NCBI GenBank assembly: GCA_004356735.1
Contig: SMWR01000054.1
Location: 1 to 36,354, forward strand
Origin: Deltaproteobacteria bacterium
Lineage (GTDB): Bacteria > Myxococcota_A > UBA9160 > SMWR01
Direction: 5' to 3'
Length of the DNA stretch: 36,354 bases
Positions 3,438 to 36,197 of this stretch are shown in pieces. Each line of letters begins with the position of its first letter. Position 1 is the stretch's first letter. The notes under the pieces are model-generated. The model was not told the origin of the DNA. It saw only the letters and a list, made by a program, of their open reading frames with translations, and ran no database searches. A program made the translations under genes and the position numbers.

Positions 3438-4723
3438 GGATCGTCCTGCTCGGCATGAACCATCGCACGGCGCCGCTCGATCTGCGCGAACGGCTGGCCG
3501 TGCACGACCCGGCTCCGGTGCTCCAGAAGCTCGTGGCCTGCGACGAGATCGATGAGGCCGTGCTGATCTCGACCTGCAACCGGGTCGAGGTGGTGGTGGT
3601 CACCCGCAGCTATGACGCGGCTCGGCTGCGGCTGCGTTCGATCTTCGCCCGGGAGCTTGCGTCGGATTCGATCGAAGTGAGCACGAGCGAGCTGGACGCC
3701 TGCCTGTACGAGCACGTGGACGGAGATGCAATGCGCCATGTCCTGCGCGTCGCCTCTTCGCTGGATTCGATGGTGGTGGGTGAGCCGCAGATTCTCGGTC
3801 AGACCAAGGATGCTTGTCGGGTGGCGACGGAATGCGGGGCTGCCGGTCCGATCTTGGGACGCCTCTTCCAGCACGCCTTCGCCACCGCAAAGCGGGTGCG
3901 CAGCGAGACGCGGATCGCTGAACGTCCGGTGTCGGTGGCCCGAGTCGCTGTGGATCTGGCCCGCCAGATCTTCGAGAACCTGGCCGACAAGCAGGCGCTC
4001 CTGATCGGGGCCGGCGAAATGATCGAGTTGGCCCTCGAGTCCCTGCGCAAGCACGGTCTGGAATCGATCCGGGTGGCCAACCGGACTCCCGAGCGGGCCC
4101 AAGAGCTTGCTGCCCGCTTCGGTGCCACCGCCCACGGACTCGACGGGTTGACCGAGCTGATCGCGGAGGTGGACGTGGTGCTGATCTCGATCGGCGGCGA
4201 CGATCCGATTCTGACCGTCGAGCTGCTGGAGCGGGCGCTGGCATCGCGTTGGGGACGCCCCCTGTTCGTGATCGACATCGGGGTTCCGCGCAATGCCGAC
4301 CCAGCCATCAACAAGCTGGACCCGGTCTATCTCTACGACATCGATGACCTGGCTTCGCTGGCCCGCAAGAACGCGGACGAGCGCCAGCGTGAGGGCGTTC
4401 TTGCGGAAAGCATCATCGAAGAGCAGCACCAGCGCTTCGAAGGTTGGCTCACGGCGCTGCGCGCGATTCCTACCATCAAGCACCTGCGCGAGCGGGTGGA
4501 GTCGATTCGCGTCGACGAGCTCGAGCGCGCGCTGCGAAGGATTTCGCTCGACGACGACCAGCGCGAGGCCGTCGAGGCCCTGACGAAGTCGATCGTGAAC
4601 AAGATCCTCCACGCGCCCGTTTCGAAGCTGCGCCGCGAGGCCGAGCACGAAGAGGGCATTGTCTACCTCGAGGCAGCGCGGGCCCTGTTCGGTCTCGACG
4701 ACGAAACATCGGACGAAGAATGA
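3434..4723 (+). CDS. hemA: Glutamyl-tRNA reductase
   Basis: MRIVLLGMNHRTAPLDLRERLAV, STCNRVEV, VVGEPQILGQ motifs; ATGA overlap with upstream gene. Confidence 0.97.
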   Translation: MRIVLLGMNHRTAPLDLRERLAVHDPAPVLQKLVACDEIDEAVLISTCNRVEVVVVTRSYDAARLRLRSIFARELASDSIEVSTSELDACLYEHVDGDAMRHVLRVASSLDSMVVGEPQILGQTKDACRVATECGAAGPILGRLFQHAFATAKRVRSETRIAERPVSVARVAVDLARQIFENLADKQALLIGAGEMIELALESLRKHGLESIRVANRTPERAQELAARFGATAHGLDGLTELIAEVDVVLISIGGDDPILTVELLERALASRWGRPLFVIDIGVPRNADPAINKLDPVYLYDIDDLASLARKNADERQREGVLAESIIEEQHQRFEGWLTALRAIPTIKHLRERVESIRVDELERALRRISLDDDQREAVEALTKSIVNKILHAPVSKLRREAEHEEGIVYLEAARALFGLDDETSDEE

Positions 4724-5649
4724 CTCGGGTTCGCCTGGCCACACGGGCGAGCGAGCTGGCGCTCGCCCAGTCCGGAATGGTGGCGCGCCTGCTCGAACGG
4801 GTCCTCGGCGTCGAGATCGAGCTGGTGCCGCTCACGACGACGGGCGACCGCCTGAAGGACGTCTCCCTGGCGAAGCTGGGCGGCAAGGCTCTGTTCGTGA
4901 AGGAGATCGAGGAGGCCCTGCTGGAAGGGCGTGCCGATCTTGCCGTCCACAGCGCCAAGGATCTGCCGGCAAGGATCCCTGAGGGTCTCGAGCTGGTGGC
5001 CTTTCCCGAGCGGGCCGATCCGCGCGACGCATTGATCGCACGTGAACGGGGCACGACGCTGACGGGTCTTGCACGGGGTGCTCGGGTCGGAACCGGCAGT
5101 GTTCGGCGCTCGGCGCAACTGCACGTGCTGCGGCCCGACCTCGAGATCGTTCCGTTGCGCGGCAACGTACCCACCCGGATTCGAAAGCTGGAAGACGAAG
5201 ACCTGGACGCGGTGATTCTCGCCAGCGCGGGGCTCGAGCGGCTGGGGTTGGCCGATCGGATCGACGAACGCATCGATCCGGCCCGCATGTTGCCCGCCGT
5301 GGCCCAGGGCATCCTGGCCATCGAGGGCCGGGTGGGAGACTCCATTTCGCGCGATGCCGCCATGATCAGTCACGCCGAAACCGTGGCCCGGGTCCGGGCC
5401 GAACGCGGAGTGCTCGTTGGACTCGATGCCGATTGCAATGTGCCTCTCGCCGCCTACGCGGAGGTCGAGGACGGCAAGCTCCGCCTGCGCGCGCTGCTCG
5501 CCAACCTGACCGGTCAGTGCGTCCTCACCTCGGAGGTCGAAGGCGACGTCGATTGTGCTGCCGAGCTGGGATCGCAGCTGGCCGCGCGGCTGCTGGCGGG
5601 CGGCGGGTCGCAGCTGCTGGAGCAGTTGCGGGCTGAGAGCGGGTCGTGA
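4720..5649 (+). CDS. hemC: Hydroxymethylbilane synthase (porphobilinogen deaminase)
   Basis: RLATRASELALAQSGMVA, VHSAKDLPARIPEGL, GSVRRSAQL, RGNVPTRIRKL, LDADCNVPLAAYA. Confidence 0.97.
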   Translation: MTRVRLATRASELALAQSGMVARLLERVLGVEIELVPLTTTGDRLKDVSLAKLGGKALFVKEIEEALLEGRADLAVHSAKDLPARIPEGLELVAFPERADPRDALIARERGTTLTGLARGARVGTGSVRRSAQLHVLRPDLEIVPLRGNVPTRIRKLEDEDLDAVILASAGLERLGLADRIDERIDPARMLPAVAQGILAIEGRVGDSISRDAAMISHAETVARVRAERGVLVGLDADCNVPLAAYAEVEDGKLRLRALLANLTGQCVLTSEVEGDVDCAAELGSQLAARLLAGGGSQLLEQLRAESGS

Positions 5650-7193
5650 CCGGCCGCCACAAGCCGGGTCGGGTGCTGCTGGTGGGAGCAGGGCCGGGGG
5701 ATCCCGATCTCATCACCGTCCGCGGTGCACAGGCCCTTCGGTCTGCCGACGTGGTCGTTCACGACGCCCTGGCTGCGGAGGAGCTACTCGATCTCGCCCC
5801 GCTCGAGGCGGAACGCATCAACGTGGGCAAGCGCGGACATGACGATCCGACCCGACCGCAGGAAGAGACGACGGCACTTCTGTTGCGGCTCGCGCAACAG
5901 GGCAAGACGGTCGTGCGCCTCAAGGGTGGCGATCCCTTCGTGTTCGGACGCGGCGCTGAGGAGGCGTCGGCACTTGCCGAGGCCGGCATCCCGTTCGAAG
6001 TCGTTCCCGGCGTCTCCTCGGTGATCGGTGCGCTGGCCTACGCGGGAATTCCCATCACCGACCGCCGCTACTCGGCGTCGTTCGCCGTCGTGACGGGACA
6101 CAAGGATCCGACCCGGGTGACGCAAGAAACGCGCTGGGCCGATCTCGGCCGCGCGGCCGATACCCTCATCATCTTGATGGGCATGCGAAACCTCGAAGGT
6201 CTGGTAGAGAAGATCATCGACGGAGGGCTTTCTCCGGAGACGCCGGCGGCTGTCGTGGCGGACGGAACGCTTCCGAGTCAGCGCGTGGTCGAGGCTCCCT
6301 TGAACCAGCTCGCCGAGCGGGTCCGCGCCGAAGGTCTTGGAGCCCCCGCTGTGGTCGTGATCGGCAACGTCGTAAAGCTTCGGCAACGCTTGAACTGGAT
6401 CGAGCGGCGTCCGCTCTTTGGACGCCGGGTGCTGGTGACGCGGACGCCCGAGCAGGCGAGTGAGTGGATGGAGGCGCTGCGCGCGGCGGGAGCCGCTCCG
6501 CTGCTGATCCCAATGATTCGAATCGAGGCCGCGTCGGACTCGGGTCCGCTGGACGCTGCGCTGGACCGGCTGCGCGGCTACGACGCGTTGCTGATCACGA
6601 GCGCCAATGCCATCCGGTTCCTGGCCGCGCGGGCGCGCGAACGCGGCGTGTTGCTCCGCGATTTCGGCGGCAGCGTCGTGTGCGTCGGGCCGAAGAGCGC
6701 CGAGGCGACACTGGCCGAGGGGCTTCCGGTCCAGACGATTCCGGCCGAACGCTTTGATGCCGAAGGCATGCTCGATGCCATCGAGAAGCACTTCCCTCCG
6801 GCCGGCCGGCGCTTCCTGTTGCCCCGGGCGGAAGCCGGCCGGGAGACCCTGGTTGACGGTCTTCGGGCGGCCGGCGCCACGGTCGATGCGGTGACGGCCT
6901 ATCGTACCGTGGCTCCCGACACCGACGCCGCGGCGTTGTGCGAGCGTCTGACGGCGGGCCGGCTGGATGTGCTCACGTTCGCGAGTCCTTCGGCGGTCCG
7001 GAATTTCATGGCATTGTTGGATCGGGCAGCGCGCCGGGCCGTGGCCGATTGTCTGGTGGCCGCCATTGGCCCCACGACCGCGGAGGCGCTACGCAAGGAG
7101 GGACTCGAGCCGGACGTCGTGCCGGAGCGGGCCAATGCGGCAGACCTGGTGGCGGCATTGGTCGAGGCCTGCGGCGCAGGAGGATCGTCATGA
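5646..7193 (+). CDS. Fused uroporphyrinogen-III C-methyltransferase / uroporphyrinogen-III synthase
   Basis: N-terminal SUMT ([42 protein letters not shown]) followed by HemD domain ([15 protein letters not shown]...[11 protein letters not shown]); GTG start. Confidence 0.95.
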
Positions 7194-8161
7194 GCTTTCC
7201 GATCACACGCATGCGTCGCCTGCGCCAGAACGACACCCTGCGCCGGATGGTCCGGGAGACCCGGGTCTGCCGGGATGACCTGGTGCTGCCGCTCTTCGTG
7301 GTGGAGGGCAGCGGGGTCCGTGAGCCCGTCGCCTCGCTGCCCGGCGTGTTCCGCCACTCGGTGGACATGCTCGTCAACGAGGTGAAGGAGGTGCGCGATC
7401 TGGGCATTCCCGCCGTCATCCTCTTCGGGATTCCCGGCGAGAAGGATGCGCGGGGGTCTGGGGCCGACGCCGCGGACGGGATCGTGCAGCGCGCGGTGGA
7501 AGCCTCCAAGGCCGCCGAGCCCGATCTCTGTGTCATCACCGACGTCTGTCTGTGCGAGTACACCGACCACGGCCACTGTGGCATCGTCGAGGGCCTCGAC
7601 GTGCTGAACGACCCGTCCGTTCAGCGCCTGGCGGCGATCGCCCTGTCCCATGCCCGGGCGGGCGCCGACGTGGTGGCGCCCTCGGACATGATGGACGGAC
7701 GCGTCGCAGCCATTCGCGAGACACTCGACCAGGGCGGCTTCGAAGGAGTGCCCATCCTGTCCTACGCGGCCAAATTTGCCAGCGCCTACTACGCACCCTT
7801 TCGCGACGCGGCCGAGAGCACGCCCGAGTTCGGCGACCGGCGCAGCTACCAGCTGGATCCGCCCAACGGACGTGAAGCCCTGCGCGAGATGCGGCTCGAC
7901 CTCGAAGAGGGTGCGGACGCGCTGATGGTGAAGCCCGCGCTGCTGTACCTCGATCTGCTGTCCGCCGCGCGTCGCGAGTTCGACGTCCCGCTGGCTGCGT
8001 ATCACGTGTCTGGCGAGTACGCGATGATCCAGGCTGCCGCTGAAAGGGGCTGGATCGATGCGGAGCGGGCCATGGACGAGGCAATGGTTGCGATCAAGCG
8101 TGCCGGTGCCGACATGATCCTGACGTATGCCGCCAAGGATGTGGCCGCGCGACTGGGCTAG
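7190..8161 (+). CDS. hemB: Delta-aminolevulinic acid dehydratase (zinc-type active site)
   Basis: [43 protein letters not shown]. Confidence 0.97.
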
Positions 8162-8183
8162 CGCCTCGCGCGGGGGGGACCCA

Positions 8184-8363
8184 ATGGCCCTGGTCTACAA
8201 GGTGGTCGAGACGAGTGACGTGAGCGACGTCGAGCTCGAGCGAATCCTGAACGAGACGACGTCCGAAGGCTGGGCTCTCGACATGATGCAGTTCGCCATG
8301 CGTGACTCGTCGAAGCGCCCGGCCATGGCCTTCCTCACGTTTACGCGGGATGACGGCGAATGA
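8184..8363 (+). CDS. DUF4177-like small protein
   Basis: 59-aa ORF MALVYKVVETSDVSDVELERILNETTSEGWALDMMQFAM...; size and pattern typical of the family. Confidence 0.65.
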   Translation: MALVYKVVETSDVSDVELERILNETTSEGWALDMMQFAMRDSSKRPAMAFLTFTRDDGE

Positions 8364-8392
8364 AAGTCAGCCGGGGCGGCTGACTTTCATTC
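8358..8392. repeat. 15-bp perfect inverted repeat (gaatgaaagtcagcc-ggggc-ggctgactttcattc); possible terminator
   Basis: Arms 8358-8372 and 8378-8392 are exact reverse complements; overlaps the stop codon at 8361-8363; no long T tract. Confidence 0.85.
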
Positions 8393-8397
8393 GCTTG

Positions 8398-8418
8398 GCG
8401 CAATCCAAGGGATTGCGC
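8398..8418. repeat. 9-bp perfect inverted repeat (gcgcaatcc-aag-ggattgcgc)
   Basis: Arms 8398-8406 and 8410-8418. Confidence 0.75.
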
Positions 8419-8425
8419 GGTTGCG

Positions 8426-8509
8426 CGGGGACGTTGTTGAATATTCAACTCCCCAACCCGGGGAAACGATCGTAAACGGGACGGAGTTGAATATTCAACA
8501 ACGTCCCCG
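8426..8509. repeat. REP/BIME-like inverted pair: two 27-bp perfectly complementary arms, each containing the palindrome gttgaatattcaac
   Basis: cggggacgttgttgaatattcaactcc (8426-8452) and ggagttgaatattcaacaacgtccccg (8483-8509) are exact reverse complements. Confidence 0.9.
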
Positions 8510-9889
8510 TCCGTTTCCGCCCGCGTTTTCGAGGTCGTCGCGGTCGGGGGGAGATACGGCGTCCGGCTGCGTGGGCCGTGGGGGAAGCGGTACTCCGGCC
8601 GCGTAGGGAAAGACCGTGCGGGCCAGGTCGATCTTGGAGCCCAGCAGCTTGTTCACGCCGGTCAGTAGCCCGATTACCCGGCCCAGCAGCACCAGATGGA
8701 TGGGGATTCGCACGATCGGGTTCTGGCGAATCCGCTTGGGTACCTCGCGTCCGAAGCGCTCGGTGAATTCCTTGTCGATCTTCACTCCGTGCCGGAACTG
8801 GGTGGCGAGCTCGAGGATGAAGGCTGCGATGTCGTTCAACGAATCCGGACGCCCATCCCGGGTCTCGAAGCCGAGCTCGAGCATGGCCTCGGCCATGCTG
8901 TCGGCGTCACCCTGGATCATGGCGCTGGCGAATCGGACCGCGGTCTCCCGAAAGTGGGGCGGCAGCTCCTTGGCCAGACCGAAGTCGACGAAGACCAGGC
9001 GCGGCCGCCCGTCCTCCATGGGCTGCACCATCAAGTTGCCGGGGTGCGGGTCGGCGTGGAAGAAGCCATGGACCAGCACCTGTTCGCAGTAGGCCTCGAT
9101 CAACAGCTTGGAGACCTGCTTCGGATCGAGTCCGGCCTGCTGGAGCCCTTCGAGATCGGTGATCTTGATGCCGTCGATGAAATCCATGACGAGCACCTTG
9201 CGGGTTGTGTGCTCCCAGTGGATCCGAGGCACCGTGACGTCGTCGCGGTCTTCGAAGAAGCGGGAGATGCGTTCCGCGTTGTGGCCTTCGTTGACGAAGT
9301 TGAGCTCCCGGGGCACGTGGGTGCGCAGCTCATCGATGAGTGGCATCAGTTCGAAGTCGCGCTCCAGGAACTCGACAGCGCGAAACAGCGCGCGCAGGTT
9401 GCGCAGATCGTCGCGGACCAGGGCTTCGATTTCGGGGTACTGAACCTTGACGGCAACGCGTTCGCCGCTGCGCAGCCGGGCCTCGTGGACCTGGGCCAGT
9501 GAAGCGGAAGCGATTGGCTCCACCGAGAAGAAGCTGAAGAAGTCGCCGAGGGGTCCGCCCAGCTCGGTTTCGACGGTGTCTCGCACCACGGGGAACGGGT
9601 GTGCGGGAACCCGGTCCTGGAGCTTCGAAAGAACGTCGACATAAGCGGGCGGCAGGATGTCGGCGCGGGTTCCCAGGAATTGGCAGCCCTTGAGAATCAT
9701 CCCCTGGAGCTCGATTGCCGCCTGGTAGATCGACTCAGCGCTGGTTCGGTGGAACTTCTGCCAGCGCTCGTCCATGTCGCGCGGCGCCAGTCGGTTCTCG
9801 ATGAAGCGGTGAGCGCGCAGGCCCAGATAGATGCGACCGAAGGTGGTGCCGATCCGGCGCGCCCGATAGAGGCGCTGGCCCGCGCGCAC
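8495..9889 (-). CDS. ABC1 kinase (AarF/UbiB family)
   Basis: ASLAQVHEARLRSGERVAVKVQYPEIE, HGFFHADPHPGNLMV, LVFVDFGLAKEL; GTG start at 9889 inferred, longer ORF overlaps the neighbouring gene. Confidence 0.92.
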   Translation of the reverse strand: MRAGQRLYRARRIGTTFGRIYLGLRAHRFIENRLAPRDMDERWQKFHRTSAESIYQAAIELQGMILKGCQFLGTRADILPPAYVDVLSKLQDRVPAHPFPVVRDTVETELGGPLGDFFSFFSVEPIASASLAQVHEARLRSGERVAVKVQYPEIEALVRDDLRNLRALFRAVEFLERDFELMPLIDELRTHVPRELNFVNEGHNAERISRFFEDRDDVTVPRIHWEHTTRKVLVMDFIDGIKITDLEGLQQAGLDPKQVSKLLIEAYCEQVLVHGFFHADPHPGNLMVQPMEDGRPRLVFVDFGLAKELPPHFRETAVRFASAMIQGDADSMAEAMLELGFETRDGRPDSLNDIAAFILELATQFRHGVKIDKEFTERFGREVPKRIRQNPIVRIPIHLVLLGRVIGLLTGVNKLLGSKIDLARTVFPYAAGVPLPPRPTQPDAVSPPDRDDLENAGGNGRGRC

Positions 9890-9896
9890 CCTGGCG

Positions 9897-11228
9897 TTAC
9901 CAGAGCTCGGGCGGCTTGGAGGGGCAGGACCAGGACGCGTCAAAGGATTCATCGCCGTTGGAGGCACCGCCGGAGTCCTCGGCGTCTTCCTCTTCGTCCG
10001 CGTAATCGTCGTCTTCATAGGACGGTGTGTAGGCGCACTCCACCCAGCGCGGCGCTGGGAACTCGAGGATGTAGCTCGAGCCGAAGCTCCGATACCTGAA
10101 CTCTCCGTCGTAGAGGAATCCGAAGCCGATGGACGGCGTCGGCACCGCGTCGAGATAATTGGCCTCGACGAGTTCGATCATTTCATCCGGGTAGATCTCT
10201 TCCTGCTCGAGGTAGGCGGCAAGCGCGTCGTTGATACTCCGCGCCTGCTGTTCGCGGGTCACGTAGTAGTCCCAGCGCGCCCAGACTTCGCCGATGATGA
10301 GTGGGACGGCGATCAGTACAGCGCCGGCGGCCATGTGCAGGACTCGTGCATCGAGCTTCTCGGGGCGGCCGCGAACGCCGACGGTGCTGGCCAGGGCGAT
10401 CGCCAGGGCGCATGCCACGGCGATTGGAATGTAGGTCTCGGCGCCCGCCCGAAAGGGCAGCAGGCTCATGGCCGAGCCCGCCGCCACGAACAGCAGCGGA
10501 GCGGTCACACCCAGCATCACGCCGCCGATGATCAGCGGGATCTTCTGGTCGGGATGCCGATGGGACAGGGCGATGCCGCCAGTGCCCATCGCGGCGCCCA
10601 TCAGCCAGAGCATCACGAAAAGGGTTCCCACCTCCATGCCGAAAACGGGTACGGCCGGCCACGGGGAGATGCTGAACTGGAGGCTTGGGTTGGTGCCGGT
10701 GGCGTTTCGGATGAATCCGACCACCACGCAGAAGACGGGCAGGAACAGCGCGATCCGAAGCGGCCAGCGGCGGCGCAGCCAGCTCTCGGCCAGGAACGGC
10801 GTGGCCAGGGAGAAGCCGAGTGTGATGGCCATGCATGCCAGGACCGCCGACGTGCGCCAGTAGAAGAACTCCCAGATCCGGGACGCCGCATCGCCGTAGT
10901 AGGTGAAGAGAACGCAGGCGACCACCGCGCTGTACCCGAGCGCCCGCGCGACGGCCGAGCGTCCGGTGAGGAAGACGGCGATCGTCAGTGCGAGCGCCGG
11001 GAATGTCAAGATTGCGATCAAGAGACCGGTGCTCTCGAAGGCGAAGGAAAGCCAGGTTGCGCGGGTCATGAACCCCGTCGGTTGGTACCAGGCAGGATCG
11101 ATCGTGACCGGCGCCGGTCCGATTCCCTGATGAACGAGATAGGCCCAGAGCACGGCGAGCACTCCGAAGACCCAGCAGAGCCAATCCAGCTTGCGCTCTG
11201 CGCGGGTCGAAGCTTCGCTGGCGGTCAC
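9897..11228 (-). CDS. Hypothetical polytopic membrane protein with pseudopilin-like soluble C-terminal region
   Basis: Long ORF with several hydrophobic helices; C-terminal AYLEQEEIYPDEMIELVEANYLDAVPTPSIGFGFLYDGEFRYRS. Confidence 0.75.
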   Translation of the reverse strand: MTASEASTRAERKLDWLCWVFGVLAVLWAYLVHQGIGPAPVTIDPAWYQPTGFMTRATWLSFAFESTGLLIAILTFPALALTIAVFLTGRSAVARALGYSAVVACVLFTYYGDAASRIWEFFYWRTSAVLACMAITLGFSLATPFLAESWLRRRWPLRIALFLPVFCVVVGFIRNATGTNPSLQFSISPWPAVPVFGMEVGTLFVMLWLMGAAMGTGGIALSHRHPDQKIPLIIGGVMLGVTAPLLFVAAGSAMSLLPFRAGAETYIPIAVACALAIALASTVGVRGRPEKLDARVLHMAAGAVLIAVPLIIGEVWARWDYYVTREQQARSINDALAAYLEQEEIYPDEMIELVEANYLDAVPTPSIGFGFLYDGEFRYRSFGSSYILEFPAPRWVECAYTPSYEDDDYADEEEDAEDSGGASNGDESFDASWSCPSKPPELW

Positions 11229-26639: not shown

Positions 26640-26860
26640 TACGGGCTTCCCTGTGGGGTGGGGGGACTTTGGCTCGGGACAGAGCCGGGCGAAGAGGTCT
26701 GCGAAGTTCTCCCTTCGGCTTCGGTCCCACGTCTCGGCCGGCGCAGCCTCCAGCACGTCCATGTCGTCGTAATGCCGCTCGGCTACGGCGGAGGACTCGT
26801 GGCCGATCGCCAGCTCCACCTGCTTGGCTGGGACGCCCCACTGCTTGACGGTAAGCCGTC
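26640..26860 (-). pseudogene. Tyrosine recombinase/integrase C-terminal remnant
   Basis: Reverse strand reads LTVKQWGVPAKQVELAIGHESSAVAERHYDDMDVLEAAPAETWDRSRRENFADLF, with GHxS...HYxD typical of a recombinase C-terminal region; stop upstream in frame at the IS-like boundary. Confidence 0.6.
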
Positions 26861-26920
26861 AGCCGAGTTTGGACATTTTGGGTCTCTGATCTACGGGAGG
26901 GTTCCGGGCTCCGAGGGGAG

Positions 26921-27250
26921 ATGGAATCCATCGCCAAGAAGGCATCGGCAGAGAAGGCGGTGCGAGACATTCGGCGCAGAACTGGACGACGCTTCTCGGC
27001 TGAAGAGAAGATCCGGATCGTGATTGAGGGTCTGCGGGGAGAGGAGAGCATCACCTCGCTGTGCCACCACGAAGGCATCGTGGCCAACCGCTGCTACCGC
27101 GGGAGCAAGGAGTTTCTGGAGGCGGGCAAGAAGCGCCTGCTGGGAGACACGCCGCGAGCAGCGAGTTCCAGCGAGGTCCCCGAGCTTCGCCAGGAAAACG
27201 CCCGACTCAAAGAGCTGGTGGCGGAGACGGTGCTTGAGAACCGTCTGGCA
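26921..27250 (+). pseudogene. IS3-family transposase OrfA, truncated
   Basis: MESIAKKASAEKAVRDIRRRTGRRFSAEEKIRIVIEGLRGEESITSLCHHEGIVANRCYRGSKEFLEAGKKRLLGD...LRQENARLKELVAETVLENRLA; then diverges, no OrfB follows. Confidence 0.85.
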
Positions 27251-27470
27251 CTATCAGATCTGGGCCCCCGCCGGCTGTCTGCCGCGGGGCATGGTTCCCG
27301 TGGGCCACCCCGCGGTTCGCGGCCGCTGCCCGAAGCGCCCGCTTCCCAGCTACCGCAGCCCCGAGAACGCCTGATCGATTCGGCACGAGCCTCCCGCTGA
27401 TTCCGCGTGGTGGCTGACGAGCCGGAGCCGGTGTTTGATCCGACGAAGGCCGGACCGACGGGTGCTGCGG

Positions 27471-29033
27471 CTACGGAGCCCCCCGCGGGCTCCGGGTCCG
27501 TTGAGCGGGCAACAGCTTCCCAGTTCCGGCCTCCGCGATGAAGACAGGTCCCGAGATCACGCGCTGACTGGCCGGGTTGATGAATTTGACCGACTGCAAA
27601 ACCTCCTCGGGGCAGCTGAGCGCACACACGTAAAGGGGCCGGACGTTCCAGCCTGCTCTCCAGGTGGAATCGCGATAGAACAGTTGGTTGACGATGTGGA
27701 TCTCGCCGTGTCGATGCACCTGATCGACCGTCGATGCGACGAAGCGGCTGGTGGCGTGAGCGAACTCGCGAGAGCTCTGCCGAAACGATTGCTGCGTCAC
27801 CTGGATCTGGTAGACGTTGGCGACCAGAACCAGTGCGAGCCAGCCGAAAGCCGCGAAGCGCGGAACCGCTGATCGCGCGTCCTTTCGGAAGACCCTCAGG
27901 TGTGTGAAGACGAGACCAAACGCGATGGCCGCTGCGCCCCAGGGGAAGTAGCGGTAGCGGTCTACCCGCCCGAACCACTCCACGCCACGGTAGAGCCGGA
28001 GCGGGATCGGGATGGAGTAGCCGATCACGAGCGTCAGCATCAGCACCGCGAGGAGGGGGACGAACTTCGTCCCCGTGATGCGGCGGTAGTCGAAGAGCAA
28101 GGCCACGGCGCTCAGTGTGAGCGCCACCAACCAGGGCCCAGCGCGGATTGATCCCACGAGCGCGTCGGTGCCTGCCGCCGGAAGCGCGAAGCCGACATAC
28201 AGCCCATGGGTGAGGAGCCGAAGGGACTGCACCAGGGCAGCGTACCCTCCTTGTTCGAGGCTCAGTGCGTCGAGTGTGCTCGGCGTGACGTGGAGTGACC
28301 GCAACGCGAGGAACGAGCCGGTCACCGCTAGATACCCCGCGATCGAGAGCGCGCGCTGCGTTCGTGTGGATTGCCAAGCTTCAGCGCTCGGGCGGGCGGC
28401 GATGACCGCGGCATACAGGAGCGGCAGCTCGGCACCCATCGTGAAACTCGTCAGCATCAGTCCATGGGCGACCAGCGATAGCGCGAGATCGCGGGTTCGC
28501 GCCGTCGCGCAATACGAGAGGAAGCGCTCGAAGCTGACGAAGAAGAACAGGGTGCCGAGAAGCTGTCCCTGGGTCGTGATCCAAAGAATGGTGTTCGCGT
28601 GCCCCATGGTCAAACCGAACATCGCCGCGGCCACGACCGCGGCAGGCCCGCTCCGCGTCAGTCGCAACGCCAGGCGATGGAGCGCCAGCAGGTTCAGGAT
28701 GTGAAGGGCGAGGCTGACGAGGTGGTATCCCCAGGGTGCGTCACCGAAGAGGGCGAACTGAACCGCCCACGCAGCTCGCAGCAGCGGCTGCCAGTGGACG
28801 CCGGAGACGGGTTGAACCAACTTATCGTACGAGAGGCCTTGGTGGCGAGCCTCGGCGAGATTCCGGAAATCATCAGCCGCGAAGCCGTCGGCGAGCATTC
28901 CGATGTAGACGATGGCAACCGTCGCCGCGAGCAGACAGACGATTCCCACCGATCCGATCGGCAACCCCGCCCAGGAACCGCTCGGAGGGCGTCTGCCCTC
29001 GTCCGGATTCGATAAATGTGTCAACGCAATCAT
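27471..29033 (-). CDS. Polytopic membrane protein, TMTC/PMT-like glycosyltransferase-type (putative)
   Basis: MIALTHLSNPDEG...ADGFAADDFRNLAEARHQGLSYDKLVQPVSGVHWQPLLRAAWAVQFALFGDAPWGYHLVSLALHILNLL; many TM segments; start ATG 29033 inferred. Confidence 0.7.
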   Translation of the reverse strand: MIALTHLSNPDEGRRPPSGSWAGLPIGSVGIVCLLAATVAIVYIGMLADGFAADDFRNLAEARHQGLSYDKLVQPVSGVHWQPLLRAAWAVQFALFGDAPWGYHLVSLALHILNLLALHRLALRLTRSGPAAVVAAAMFGLTMGHANTILWITTQGQLLGTLFFFVSFERFLSYCATARTRDLALSLVAHGLMLTSFTMGAELPLLYAAVIAARPSAEAWQSTRTQRALSIAGYLAVTGSFLALRSLHVTPSTLDALSLEQGGYAALVQSLRLLTHGLYVGFALPAAGTDALVGSIRAGPWLVALTLSAVALLFDYRRITGTKFVPLLAVLMLTLVIGYSIPIPLRLYRGVEWFGRVDRYRYFPWGAAAIAFGLVFTHLRVFRKDARSAVPRFAAFGWLALVLVANVYQIQVTQQSFRQSSREFAHATSRFVASTVDQVHRHGEIHIVNQLFYRDSTWRAGWNVRPLYVCALSCPEEVLQSVKFINPASQRVISGPVFIAEAGTGKLLPAQRTRSPRGAP

Positions 29034-29628
29034 GGTCGGCGACGCGAGCCGGGTAACTGTTCGTTTCCTTCTCGTTGGTTCGAATCGAAGGGGCCTCGGG
29101 GATAGATTGCTGTGCTGTGCGCTTTCGTGCCAATCGTGCAGGTCGTCAGACTTTCTCGGACAGTTGAACCGTTCTTTTTCAAGAGGGTTCCAACTCCCGT
29201 CTGCGGCTAGCTCGCGTTTCGCAGATACTCTTTCTTGCTTCGTTTCAATGTCAAGCGCCTGATTCTTTCTCTGCGGTTGAGGATTGCACATTGGCGACCG
29301 TGGTACATGTCGTCCGGCGTCACGTTGCAGCTGGATTCGTGGACCCGCTCAGGGTTGCAGTCCTCCACGAAGCGAGTGATGCCGGCTGGTCCGATCTGGC
29401 GCGATCAGCGGCACATCCGGGACGGGTGCGACCGCAGAAGGTCGGAACGCAGTGCCCGGTGGCGCCGGCGGCCCTGGGAACCGCCATGGGGGCGGCGCCG
29501 ACGAAGAGGAGTACGAGGGCCGATGCGAGCGCGAGTCGAAGCCGGTTGAGCTCCGCTGGCTTCCCGGGACCCTCGCGTGGATCATTGCTCCAATCTGTCC
29601 AGACTCGGCTGACGGCTCGCAAACGCCA

Positions 29629-31107
29629 CTAGGCGAGGATTCCCGGTACGACCTCGCCGGCGACGTCGGTCAGGCGGAACGCGCGCCCTTGGAATCGATA
29701 CGTGAGCCGCTCGTGGTCGAGCCCGAGCAGATGCAGGATGGTCGCCTGCAGGTCGTGTACGTGCACTGGGTTTTCGACGATCCGGTAGCCGAGGTCGTCT
29801 GTTTGGCCGTAGGTGAGGCCGGCCTTGATGCCACCGCCCGCCATCCAGATACAGAATGCGTCCGGGTGATGATCGCGACCGCGTTTTTTGCCCCCGCCTC
29901 CACGCTGAAGCAAGGGCGTGCGGCCGAACTCGCCGCACCAGATGACGAGAGTGTCATCGAGGAGCCCTCGCTGACGCAGATCTTTGACGAGTGCCGCCGA
30001 CGCGCGATCCACCTGCCGACATTTCACGGGAAGATTTCCGAAGACGTCCAGGTGATGATCCCAACCACCGTCATAGAGCTCAACGAACCGAACACCGCGC
30101 TCCACGAGACGGCGAGCCAGTAGGCAATTGTTGGCGAAGGAGGCCTCTCCGGATATGGCACCATACATCTCGCGCACTGATTCCCGCTCTTCGGAAAGGT
30201 CCATCAGTTCGGGGATCGACGTCTGCATACGAAAGGCGAGTTCGTACTGAGCGATGCGCGTAGCGATCTCGGGATCACCGACAGTTTCCAGATTCTCCTC
30301 ATTCAGGGCGCGAATGGCGTCCAGAATACGCCGCCGGTCCGCTCGCTCGATTCCCCTGGGGTCCGACAGGAAGAACATCGGCTCGTCCCCCCCGCGAAAT
30401 TCGACGCCGCGATACACGCTGGGTAGGAAGCCGTTGCTCCACAAGTCCCTACCGGCACCTACGAACACGCCGCTGCTCATTACGACGTAAGCCGGAAGAT
30501 TCTGGTTTTCGCTTCCGAGGCCGCGGACCACCCAGGAACCGAAACTCGGTCGCCCGTAGCGAAAGAACCCGGTGTGGAGCACGAGTTGAGCGGGTACGTG
30601 GTTGTTCTGATCGGTGTGCACACTCTTGATCACGGCGATGTCGTCGACGACCTCGGAGAGGTGGGGAAGCAGCTCTGAAACCTCGGTACCACTTTCTCCG
30701 CGCCGTGAGAACGCATAGGGTGTCCCCAACAGGTGCGGATGACCACGGATTTGCGCGAATCGTGCCTTCTCACACAACTCTGCCGGGCACGGCTGACCAT
30801 CGTGTTGCTGGAGCATTGGCTTGTAGTCGAGTAGATCGAGTTGGGATGGACCACCGAGCATGTGCATCAGAATGACGTTCTTTGCCCGCGGCTCGAAGTG
30901 CGGTCGTTGAACCGCGAGCGGGTCGTCGAGCCGTTGCGACGGATGGTCGGTGTGAGCCGGGGAAAATGGGCCCTCCGGTCGAAGCAGGGAGCCCAGCGCA
31001 ATCGCTCCGAGACCCAGACCCGCCGATCCGAGCAGGTCTCGACGCGTGAACCTTCGATCGGCCTCCGCCTGCGCGCGGCCGTCTTCAGCCGTTCGTGATC
31101 GTCTCAT
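29629..31107 (-). CDS. DUF1501 domain-containing protein with Tat-type signal
   Basis: [97 protein letters not shown]. Confidence 0.92.
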
Positions 31108-33880
31108 CGAGATTCAGCAGCGTAGTGGCGACATAGAACCACGCAGCCCAGTCGAGCACGTTGATCCCGCGCGGAGGGCGTAGCGACGCGGCGAGGCTTC
31201 GGGCTCTGGCCGGGTTGCGCTCGTTGCGGTTCAACTCGTTACGATACAGCTCGTGCAGCAGGTCGGTCTCCCGCGGGTTTGGATGTCTGGCGACGGCGAG
31301 CTGAAAGCCATAGTCGATACGTTGCCGTGAGGTTGTCGCATTCGGAGCCCGCATGATCCGAACAGCGAGGGCGGCCGCGAGGTCGACGTATACGGAATCG
31401 TTCAGGAGCGTCAGAGCCTGGAGCGGTGTGTTGCTTCGCAGACGTCGAACGCACGTCGATGAACGGCTGGGGGCGTCGAAGTTGACGAAACTCGGGTAGA
31501 GACTCGTTCGTCTCCAGACCGTGTAGAGCCCGCGCCGATAGCGATCCCGGCCAGTCGACGGCAGATACTCCAGCTTCCGAAAGGCGCCCGCGGTCTTCTT
31601 CCACAAGCCCGGGGGCTGCTGGGGGTATACGGGTGGACCGAAGCGCTTTCGGTTGAGCTTGCCGCTGACGGCGAGGGCGTTGTCGCGGATCATTTCGGCA
31701 GTGAGACGCAGCCTCGGGCCGCGAGCATAGAGACTGTTTTGCGGATCCCGTTCGAGCTGCTCCGCATTCACCTGCGATGACTGCCGGTACGTCGAAGACG
31801 TCGCGATCAGACGGTGCATGTGTTTCATCGACCAGCCGTGTTCCACAAATTCGACCGCGAGCCAGTCGAGAAGAGCCCCGTGGCTCGGTGCTTCGCCTTT
31901 GGTGCCAAAGTCATCACGCGATTCGACGAGTCCGCGACCGAAGAACTCCGCCCACCAGCGATTCACCGTCACGCGTGCGACCAGGGGATTTTCGGGACTG
32001 ACGAGCCAACGGGCCAGACCGAGGCGGTTGGGCGGGGCGTCCTGTGGCAACGTGTGGAGAAACGACGGAGTCCCGGGCTCCACCTGCTCGCCGGGATTGA
32101 GAAAGCTTCCGCCCATCAGGATTTGGGTCGTGCGCTTTTCCTCCAGCTCGACCATCACGAGGGTCGTGGATGTCGCGCGCCCCATCGCTATCGGTGCGTT
32201 CTGTCGGCCAACGCCTTCGTCAGGAAGTTGCAACCAGGGGCCGATGAATTCAACACCCACCAAATTCTGCGCGTACCGGGTTTCGATCGGTGTGTTGTTG
32301 AAGTAGCTGAAGATCTGATAGTACTCGCGCTGGGTAATCGGATCGTGTTTGTGATCGTGGCACTGTGCGCACTCGATCGTGGTTCCGAGCCAGACCGTAC
32401 CCGTGACGTTCGTCCGGTCGACCACTTGGGCGATACGGTACTCTTCCGGATCCGCGCCGGCCTCTTCATTGGCCGGCGCTCCGCGGTGGAAGCCTGTCGC
32501 GATCCGTTGGTCGAGCGTTGGATCCGAAAGCAGATCTCCAGCGATCTGCTCGATCGTGAACTGATCGAAGGGCATGTCGCGATTCAGCGCCGTGATGACC
32601 CAATCGCGATACGGCCAGGACGCGCGCAGGCCGTCGAATTGATAACCGTTGCTGTCCGCGTAGCGCGCTGCGTCGAGCCAGGGCACGGCCCAGCGTTCGC
32701 CGTAGTACGGCGAGGCGAGTAAGCGGTCCACGACCGACTCGTAGGCGTTCGGCGAGGCGTTGCTCGCGAATGCGTTCACCTCCGCCGGCGTCGGCGGAAG
32801 CCCGATCAGGTCGAAGTAGACCCTCCGCAGCAGCGTGGCGCGGTTCGCCTCGGGCGCGGGGGACAGGCCTTCGGCCTCCATGTGGGCCAACACGAACGCG
32901 TCGATGGGGTTGAGAACCCATCCGGGAGACTCGACCGCGGGCACAGCGGGCCGTTCTGGCTTCACGTAGGCCCAATGGGACTCGATGGTCGCGTCCGCAA
33001 CCGTGGCCGACTCGGGCCAGTTCGCGCCCTGATCGATCCAGGCCTTGATCAAGGCGATCTGTTCGATCGGAAGGGGATCCTCGTTCTGCGGCATGCTTTT
33101 CTTCTTGTCCAAGGCCAGCAGCCGTCGAACCACTGTGCTGTGTTCCCCGTCGCCGGGGATCACCGCCTTTCCGGTTCTGCCTCCGCCGATGCTGAGATGT
33201 CGGGCGTCGAGCCGCAATTCGTGCCTCTGCTTCTTCGGGCCGTGGCACGAGTAACACGACGCCTCGAAGATGGGTTGCACGTCCCGCACGAAGTCCACGG
33301 TTCCAGTGGGCGCCACCGACGCCAGAGAAACCGGTTCCCGCTGGAAGAACGGGATCGCGGAGGTGAGGTAGTCGTCCCCGAGGACGAGCATCCCGCCGAA
33401 ATGTCCGCCGACGCTGACCGCGGCGCCGCACAACATCAGCCCCGCCACGTAAGCGCGTCGGAGCCACACTCCCGGTCGCACGCGCTCGGCGAAACAGAGC
33501 ACGGCCACCGCCACCGATCCCACGGCCGTGCCAACGCCAAGCCACCGGTGGGTCTCGAGCATCTCCGCGGCACGCCCCACGTAGTCAGCGTGGCTCCCGG
33601 CCTGCCAGCCCAAGAGCGCGGCCACGACCGCTCCGGCGGCGCCCAGGCGTAGACAAAAGAATGCCGTGTCCCCTGCGACCGGTCGCTGGCGAATCAGATT
33701 GAGCGCTTCCACCACGACCGCCGTGAGGAGAAGCGCGATCGGAAAGTGGACGGCCATTGGGTGCAGCCGCCCGAGCAACCGTCCCACCCAGGGGTCCGTC
33801 TCTCCGGCCCATGCCGTTCCGGCCGTAGCGGCCATCCAAACGCAGATCCCGATGAGTGACGACGTTTTGCCTCGTGTCAT
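31085..33880 (-). CDS. Planctomycete-type PSCyt1/DUF1549/DUF1553 (PSD1) protein with N-terminal DUF2231-like membrane domain
   Basis: [22 protein letters not shown] (DUF2231-like); [29 protein letters not shown] (PSCyt1); [45 protein letters not shown] (DUF1549); [63 protein letters not shown] (DUF1553). Confidence 0.93.
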
Positions 33881-34102
33881 ACCTTGATCCGCTGCCTGCA
33901 GCTCCGCTCCGATCCGTCAGGTTACCCCATCGAACTGTGATGGGTACGATCTCGTTGGACACGGAAGTTCTAGTACAACCGATGTTTTTACGAGGCGCCT
34001 CATGGGGCGTTTTTCTTCGAAGGGCACGTGCGGCTGGAGTTGCCCCGGTTCCGTAGACGGTCAAGCCCTCGGGCTCGTTGACCTTCGTTCGGGATCTCTT
34101 TT

Positions 34103-34190
34103 CTACGCCACTGGTGACAAGTAGCCGAGCGCCGAGTGCCGACGATGCGGGTTGTCCCGGCCTTCTCGATGAAGTCGAAGACGGCCATCG
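34103..34190 (-). pseudogene. IS3-family transposase OrfB C-terminal remnant (frameshifted)
   Basis: Reverse strand: AVFDFIE, then in another frame NPHRRHSALGYLSPVA*, matching the conserved FDYIE..YN..RRHSALGYLSP end of IS3 OrfB. Confidence 0.75.
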
Positions 34191-34327
34191 CGGTCTCGTT
34201 GCGTCGTCCAGGCCCGCTTGCGGCGACTGCTGCCCTCGAGTGCCGCACGGCCCATCAGATGGGCGACTCGCTTGCGCCCTACGCGGGTTCCCTACAACGA
34301 ACTGAAAACCCCGATCCCGGGCTCGTT

Positions 34328-34372
34328 CTCATGACCCCGGGGGCGGGGGTTCGAAGCCCTCCCCCGCTGCCA
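34328..34372 (+). other. 3' half of a tRNA (CAU anticodon loop to CCA end); 5' half absent
   Basis: ctCATga / ccccg / ggggc / ggggg-ttcgaag-ccctc / ccccgct / g / cca matches canonical tRNA positions 32-76; no matching 5' acceptor, D arm or 5' anticodon stem upstream. Confidence 0.55.
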
Positions 34373-34375
34373 TCG

Positions 34376-34407
34376 AAGCCCCCGGAACCGGAAGGTTCCG
34401 GGGGCTT
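34376..34407 (+). terminator. Strong intrinsic-terminator-like hairpin
   Basis: aagcccccggaacc-ggaa-ggttccgggggctt, 14-bp perfect stem with GNRA-type loop, followed by a weak T-rich tail tcgtgtttc. Confidence 0.85.
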
Positions 34408-34616
34408 TCGTGTTTCAGGCTCCAGCTGCGCTGTGGGAATTCAATCGGGACTTCGCGGCGCGGCGACAGAGCAAGTCCGCAGGCACTTCGCCCTCACGAA
34501 CCTCGAGTGGGCTGGGTAGGCATCGGAGGGACGGATTCCAGAGCGTTGTTTTTTCAACGGCCACAGTCCAGAATGTCATGCGAGGCAGCTGAGTTGCGCA
34601 CCGTCGGCTACATCGA

Positions 34617-36197
34617 GTGAGCGAACGTCGAGCCCTTAACGGGCTGCGGTACTTCGCGGTCCCGGCGCTCGCCATCGCCGCGACCGGCGGGATCTTCCTC
34701 GCCAACCTGCGGCGCTACACCTTCCTTTCGGACGATGCCTTCATCAGCTTCCGCTACGCCCACCACCTCGTACAGGGCCTCGGACTCGTCTGGAACGTCG
34801 GCGAGGCAGTGGAGGGCTACACGAACTTCCTCTGGGTGCTGCTCATGGCCGGCGCGCTTGCCCTGGGGCTCCGCCCCGAGGTCATCTCCAACGCGCTGGG
34901 CATCACCAGCGGCGTGGGCGTGCTCACCGCGCTCGTGGTCTTCTCGGCTCGGGCCACGAGCTGGCGTAATCCCCTCATCTGGTTGGCGCCGCTGACACTG
35001 GCCACAAGCCGCAGCTTCGTCGCCTGGTGCACCGGCGGGCTCGAGACCATGTTCTTCACGCTGCTCGTGCTGCTCGCCTTCTTGCGCTTTGTGCGCGAGC
35101 ACGAGAGACGCGAGGAAGCGCCGGTAGGCTCGGCCCTCCTCTTCGCAGCGGCCACCCTGACGCGTCCCGAAGGCGCCCTCTTCGCCGCCGTGGCGGGAAG
35201 CGCGCTCGTGTTGGAGTGTCTGCGGGGCCGGCGGTCGCTGCGCGCGGTAACGCTCTTCGCTGTCCCCTACGCCACCGTCGTTGGCGCCCACCTGCTCTGG
35301 CGCCACGCCACCTACGGCTTCTGGCTTCCGAACAGCTTCTACGCCAAGGTACCCGGCGCCGCGTGGGAGAAGGGCGCCCGCTACCTCTTCACCTTCCACG
35401 AGGAATACCGGATCCTCTGGTTCCTGCCGCTCACTCTGCCCGCCCTCGTGCTGGGACGCCGCCATGCCGCCGGCCTTTTCTTTGCCGCCATCGCGACGTA
35501 TCTCCTCTACGTCGCATTCGTGGGCGGCGACTGGTTTGAGTTTCGCTTCCTCGTCGTCGTCCTGCCCCTGCTCTACTGGCTGCTGGCCGAGTCGCTGGTG
35601 TGCCTGGTGGAGCGCGCCCGGCCGGGCCGGCTGCGCCTGGCCGTGGCGACGCTCGCCGCGGTGGCCGCGGGCCTGCTCGTGGTGGCCACCCACGTCGGTT
35701 CGCGCCGCCCTGAGGCACGGCGCTTGGCACCATACGGGATCACGAGCATCGAGGGCATCGACCGCTACGCGCGCTCGCGAATTGCCGAAGGACGCTTCCT
35801 GCGCCAGCTCATCGACGAGGGTGTCCTGCCGCGGGACCTGCGCATCGCCGTCAGCGGCGCCGGCGCCGTTCCGTACTACACGGACTGGCCGACGTTGGAC
35901 CTGCACGGGCTGAACGACGTCGAGATCGCCCACTCGCCGATTGCGAAGCGCGGCTGGATCGGGCACGAGCGCTCGGCGAGCCTCGAGCTGCTGCGTCGCC
36001 GGAACGTGGCGGTCGTGGACGTCGTGAACCGCCTGGTCCACGACTCGCGGATCGACCGCCGCGTCCGCGGCGCGCGCTTGTATCCGGAGCTGCCGCTGCA
36101 GGTGATTCCCGTGCGCGGCCGCTATTTCAAGTTCGCGACGCCCCTGTCGCGCGAGGAACTCGCGCGGGCCCTCGCGCCCCTGGAACTCGCCGACTGA
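34617..36197 (+). CDS. Polytopic membrane protein, ZomB/AftB-like glycosyltransferase-type (putative)
   Basis: TFLSDDAFISFRYAHHLVQGLGLVWNVGEAVEGYTNFLWVLLMAGALALG; CTGGLETMFFTLLVLLAFL; ATLTRPEGALFA; GTG start. Confidence 0.8.
   Translation: MSERRALNGLRYFAVPALAIAATGGIFLANLRRYTFLSDDAFISFRYAHHLVQGLGLVWNVGEAVEGYTNFLWVLLMAGALALGLRPEVISNALGITSGVGVLTALVVFSARATSWRNPLIWLAPLTLATSRSFVAWCTGGLETMFFTLLVLLAFLRFVREHERREEAPVGSALLFAAATLTRPEGALFAAVAGSALVLECLRGRRSLRAVTLFAVPYATVVGAHLLWRHATYGFWLPNSFYAKVPGAAWEKGARYLFTFHEEYRILWFLPLTLPALVLGRRHAAGLFFAAIATYLLYVAFVGGDWFEFRFLVVVLPLLYWLLAESLVCLVERARPGRLRLAVATLAAVAAGLLVVATHVGSRRPEARRLAPYGITSIEGIDRYARSRIAEGRFLRQLIDEGVLPRDLRIAVSGAGAVPYYTDWPTLDLHGLNDVEIAHSPIAKRGWIGHERSASLELLRRRNVAVVDVVNRLVHDSRIDRRVRGARLYPELPLQVIPVRGRYFKFATPLSREELARALAPLELAD

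Follow-up and report, generated by a model that had tools for sequence, protein, structure and literature searches.

A probable worn junction of two islands at the initiator tRNA gene in a draft genome of a poorly studied bacterial group

The window analyzed here, a stretch of 36,354 nucleotides that is contig C63 of the draft genome G000 (2.46 Mb, 217 contigs, 84% complete), contains the orphan 3′ half of a tRNA-fMet(CAU), set between the 3′ end of a tyrosine integrase gene on its right and a short segment resembling the end of an integrated element on its left. The region 34283–34513 is very probably the worn junction of two islands that were integrated successively at the initiator tRNA gene.

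The tRNA-fMet half and its terminator

The first-pass annotation of this DNA had described the 3′ half of a CAU tRNA starting at 34328, followed by a terminator and lacking a 5′ half beside it, and had read it as a possible scar of integration. The description is borne out with its coordinates correct, and the tRNA can be assigned: 34328–34372 is identical at 39 of 45 positions to the 3′ half of the intact tRNA-fMet(CAU) of the same genome (in-genome E = 4e-9). The 3′ fragment without a 5′ half and the intact host gene are thus of the same isoacceptor, and the six differing positions mark the event as an old one. Neither ARAGORN nor Rfam at gathering score returned an intact tRNA in the window, and a permissive Rfam scan of 33900–34650, with matches listed up to E = 10, contained none to a tRNA. 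Contig C63 gave no match to the fMet 5′ half (positions 1–32). An intact or intron-split tRNA was therefore rejected, as the two halves for one tRNA are not present and no tRNA or intron family was found; a group I intron or an intact divergent tRNA was rejected as well, since no tRNA, intron, or other RNA family was found at gathering score and the 5′ half is absent from the contig.

Of the extent first given to the feature, 34328–34407, the start and the half tRNA hold, but the meaningful feature is larger, about 34283–34513. The hairpin terminator predicted after the CCA end is present, with a stem of 15 bp by folding rather than the 14 bp first reported.

The intact host tRNA-fMet lies at G000:C184:14751–14825, where contig C184 stops at base 75 of the 77-base gene. 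Because this gene is on C184 and the half copy on C63, the island is not traceable end to end in the draft assembly. A terminator-like match at C207:108–135 was considered as the missing continuation of the fMet contig and rejected, being coding-like DNA without fMet or integrase.

Table 1. Positions of the features at the half-copy site in the window, and of T-loop inserts in half copies of relatives
Feature	Position	Strand	Evidence
tRNA-fMet(CAU) 3′ half without its 5′ half, from anticodon loop through CCA; displaced attachment-site part	34328..34372	+	39/45 versus host fMet; no tRNA called; exact 45-bp counterparts in G062, G039, G026
Hairpin terminator of the former fMet gene	34375..34408	+	15-bp stem, GGAA loop, −34 kcal/mol; similar hairpin after intact fMet in relatives
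Remains of the left island's end arm, adjoining the core	34283..34327	+	Same arm before half copies in G017, G026, G010, G016, G006
Imperfect inverted repeat across the junction, probable core-type integrase sites	34306..34351 (34306–34324 with 34333–34351)	.	Score reached by 1 of 1000 shuffles
IS3-family transposase (OrfB), truncated remnant with an IS end at 34035	34035..34293	-	78% and 77% matches to intact IS in G019:C499; OrfB motifs readable
Tyrosine integrase gene stub, last 32 codons, convergent with the tRNA half	34418..34513	-	SPLEVREGEVPADLLCRRAAKSRLNSHSAAGA, 69% identical to G015 integrase C-terminus, E=3e-6
Worn copy of GTGTGGGGACTTTGTGGGGACTT direct repeats on the integrase side, probable arm-type integrase sites	34434..34455	+	Aligned to intact repeats of G015, G062; binding role inferred
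T-loop inserts in half copies	L071:5375-5469, L072:1143-1237 and 5458-5540, L073:3014-3080, L136:2293-2381, L137:2982-3075, L070:5163-5255		

fMet islands and their integrases in relatives

When 60 relatives were searched with the region, both intact fMet genes and additional half copies preceded by non-tRNA DNA came to light; the sequence homologies, exact repeats, and order of genes described here were observed directly in these genomes. In G062, an intact fMet gene has a convergent tyrosine integrase gene about 48 bp behind it (64% identity to the G015 integrase, with a PF00589 match). A half copy 9670 bp away shares exactly 45 bp with the fMet 3′ half, and the identity extends by no further base on either side. 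Beyond this half copy is a decayed second integrase with two stop codons, and GTGGGGACTT repeats are common to both ends of the element. In G039, the half copy again matches fMet without a difference over these 45 bp, and the ends of the two contigs each hold part of the integrase. In G026, the two stand 2.5 kb apart, again with an exact 45-bp repeat, and enclose a CAP-domain gene without an integrase, whereas in G015 the integrase lies 41 bp from fMet with a shorter half copy 8 kb on. In G062 and G026, one island is bounded by an intact tRNA at one end and by a fragment of equal orientation at the other. The exact repeats of G062, G039, and G026 all begin at CTCATAA, the anticodon loop, which places the crossover within those 45 bp. 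When the GTDB genomes were scanned for half copies with an exact pattern, only two records were returned, matching the G039 and G026 contigs.

The synteny of the right-hand gene (34617–36197) and of the DNA that follows polA was used to look for an empty site, and none was found; at these places the relatives showed neither fMet nor an integrase nor genes of the window, and the genes flanking the site in the window could not be located near fMet or polA in relatives. The tblastx matches in that search were scattered (16–127 codons, 28–63% identity) and are typical GC-rich noise. Among the ten top-ranked literature matches, none was relevant to fMet islands in Myxococcota.

With the G015 integrase as query, matches were found in 23 of 80 genomes of the order. 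Many members of the family are encoded near a tRNA 3′ end in a tail-to-tail arrangement, at fMet in G015, G062, and G051, with more distant members beside Arg, Leu, Thr, Phe, Lys, or SeC tRNAs. The fMet-directed integrases, together with that of G039, are closest in sequence to the G015 integrase. The targets, as read from gene neighborhood alone, fit a family in which each member would be specialized on one tRNA gene. In the window's own genome, an integrase fragment (PF00589) at G000:C111:1519-1987 (L142) is convergent with tRNA-Lys(TTT), a second possible island scar.

Several relatives carry segments between successive fMet half copies, or between a half copy and fMet, that are free of integrase genes: L066 (G025:C202) 6425–10809, L071 (G010:C149) 3991–5469, and L067 (G026:C27) 212–2810. 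Each holds one or a few genes, among them those for a GAF/cyclase sensor, an acetyltransferase, an enolase-type enzyme, and a CAP-domain protein. In G010, G016, and G015, which belong to one genus, fMet half copies have an insert at the same T-loop point, between GGTT and CGAA (Table 1). Most of these inserts consist of two hairpins whose sequence varies between copies with the pairing kept, and the intact fMet genes are without such an insert. The notion that the T-loop insert of genus g11 is a dispersed repeat was rejected, as the G010-type insert occurred only in half copies in the five genomes searched.

Integron gene cassettes are single genes between repeated recombination sites, and some of the relatives similarly have single genes between repeated sites; unlike those of integrons, the sites here contain the 3′ half of a tRNA together with a long arm that bears direct repeats. 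It is a doubtful, if conceivable, proposition that short segments ending in arm and fMet half copy (those of G025:C202, G026:C27, and G010:C149) were moved in trans by fMet integrases and that the window is a decayed site of such an array. If true, the outcome would be a cassette-like system, anchored on a tRNA, for assembling arrays of genes behind fMet; the double-hairpin inserts found in some half copies would then form part of the sites it uses. Among the observations in relatives, the single-gene segments without an integrase and the double-hairpin inserts are less ordinary and might merit further work.

The two flanks of the half copy and the rest of the window

To the right of the half copy, the DNA at 34328–34513 aligns with the fMet 3′ half, terminator, repeats, and integrase 3′ end of G015 at 79% identity over 186 bp (E = 5e-40; several of the E-values in this report are from small custom databases), a match that is not attributable to chance. 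The 32-codon 3′ stub adjoining the half copy derives from the tRNA-directed integrase family that stands beside tRNA genes in the relatives, and its register with G015 indicates that an fMet gene with an island immediately behind it formerly ended in this half tRNA. No full-length integrase of the G015 family was detected in the window's draft genome at E ≤ 1e-25.

To the left, the segment adjoining the core resembles an arm that precedes half copies in five relatives (Table 1). Its summed alignment score is 90, compared with a mean of 44, a standard deviation of 5.5, and a maximum of 65 for 600 random window segments, and a small profile matches it with nhmmer at E = 0.008. In the relatives, the arm is conserved over about 115–130 nt before giving way to unrelated genes, and direct repeats of the GTGGGGACT type, similar to the ones at the integrase end, lie in its outer part. 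The arm in the window is short, about 45 nt, with the outer part missing and an IS3-family remnant in its place, the last ~10 nt of which overlap the arm match. An imperfect inverted repeat spans the junction of arm and half copy with a score that was reached by 1 of 1000 shuffles; it is present in class 1 arms, in G062, and in the window, and is absent from other arms. The G062 arm tracks the different tRNA sequence of that genome (CTGCGACC versus GGTCGCAG; in the others CCCCGACC versus GGTCGGGG). We infer that the integrase would bind core-type sites in the inverted repeat and arm-type sites in the direct repeats.

An element end is thus found on both sides of the displaced fragment, the arm on the left and the integrase end on the right, with a parallel in G062. 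The assignment of the left arm as an element end is less certain than the half copy itself, the arm being short. The right side is convincing alone, and with an nhmmer E-value of 0.008 for so short an arm one could propose a single island, in which the half copy is the left (attL-type) end with the integrase to its right, the fMet 5′ half was deleted, and the arm is a chance or unrelated match. However, the arm scores well above all 600 random segments and the inverted repeat across the junction is kept as well, and we regard a single island as improbable. Still less credible is a second ordinary fMet gene that was broken by an IS3-family element, through insertion and deletion of the 5′ half, and then decayed with no site-specific integration. 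The truncated IS3 remnant does lie within 40 nt of the half copy, but the half copy has its left border at the anticodon loop, which is also the starting point of the exact repeats in three relatives, the 45 nt separating the IS from the half copy are a match to the conserved arm, and the right side has the integrase stub expected of an island behind fMet; this reading is already disfavored, and its chances are very small.

The first-pass annotation had pointed to a recombinase remnant about 7.5 kb to the left as a possible partner of the half tRNA. The minus strand at 26646–26837, immediately after polA, weakly matches a tyrosine-recombinase C-terminus (35–48% identity, E = 0.01–0.07), and a GTGGGG-rich stretch lies there as well. 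No link to the half tRNA was found; the site's own remnant is at 34418–34513, directly to its right. The remnant behind polA is at best a distant relative and may be another old island end. The half copy could in principle mark where a 7.7-kb island ends on the right, with this remnant as its integrase, given the tyrosine-recombinase-like C-terminus, the GTGGGG/GGGGACTTT run in that region, and a recombinase gene orientation as expected for the left end of an island. Against such an island, the match is weak, the flank is polA rather than fMet, and an IS OrfA adjoins the remnant, with the IS-type end sequence recurring in inverted form at 29563–29617; we consider it unlikely.

The adjacent segment of the window, 26851–29617, has an IS-type end and an OrfA-like HTH_Tnp_1 gene (26921–27400) at its left, its end sequence being inverted at 29563–29617, and between these ends is a 606-aa ORF that belongs to no known Pfam family. 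Farther right, at 29629–33880 on the minus strand, a DUF1501 gene adjoins a DUF1549/DUF1553 gene with a PSCyt1 cytochrome-type domain.

The favored account, two islands integrated in succession, is consistent with both flanks and with the exact 45-bp fMet half copies that bound integrase-carrying islands in the relatives, and the initial interpretation of an integration scar is supported. An fMet-directed tyrosine integrase would recombine the attachment site of an element with the fMet gene inside the 45-bp segment between anticodon loop and CCA. With its own 3′ half and terminator, the element would restore fMet, and the host's old 3′ half would be pushed to the far end of the element. The half tRNA in the window was probably displaced in this way, with the fMet gene on C184 as the presumed former other end of the island. 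The terminator and integrase 3′ end to its right would then belong to an older element that formerly lay directly behind fMet, and the putative end arm to its left to the newer element that displaced it. Later, most of the older integrase would have been lost, an IS3-family element would have been left truncated in the end of the newer element, and the half tRNA, no longer under selection, would have drifted to 87% identity.

Relation to known tRNA-targeted islands

The arrangement corresponds to that cataloged by Islander, in which a tRNA gene split by a tyrosine integrase is made whole again by island sequence and the far end is recognizable by the displaced fragment, with crossover subsites that include the anticodon loop (the anticodon-centered subsite A; PMC4383910). 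The relatives share with these islands the restored tRNA, the 3′ fragment at the far end, the adjacent tyrosine integrase, and a repeat that starts from the anticodon loop, and the window shares the half copy and an integrase stub. Unlike the Islander islands, the window retains a decayed junction alone, with a stub of 32 codons and the matching tRNA on another contig. Islands stacked in tandem, some without an integration module, have been described at ssrA in Dehalococcoides (PMC3146451), where repeated insertion at one RNA gene has likewise produced a row of 3′-end copies; those islands target tmRNA with DsiB, a CcrB-like recombinase, as their integrase, whereas the target here is fMet and the integrase matches PF00589. 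Partial tRNA genes that result from integration are documented widely (PMC9897764), and the half copy is likewise a 3′ tRNA fragment from mobile-element integration; those fragments are mostly recent and near-exact, whereas the window half is 87% identical and is not called as a tRNA.

This kind of scar, left by tRNA-targeted islands in tandem, is already well known and is met here in a poorly studied bacterial group. The feature in the window is itself an old, inactive scar. Its meaning lies in the repeated insertion of islands at the initiator tRNA gene in an order that is little known and based on MAGs, and in a recognizable site, composed of arm, 45-bp core, terminator, and integrase 3′ end, by which such islands can be mapped.
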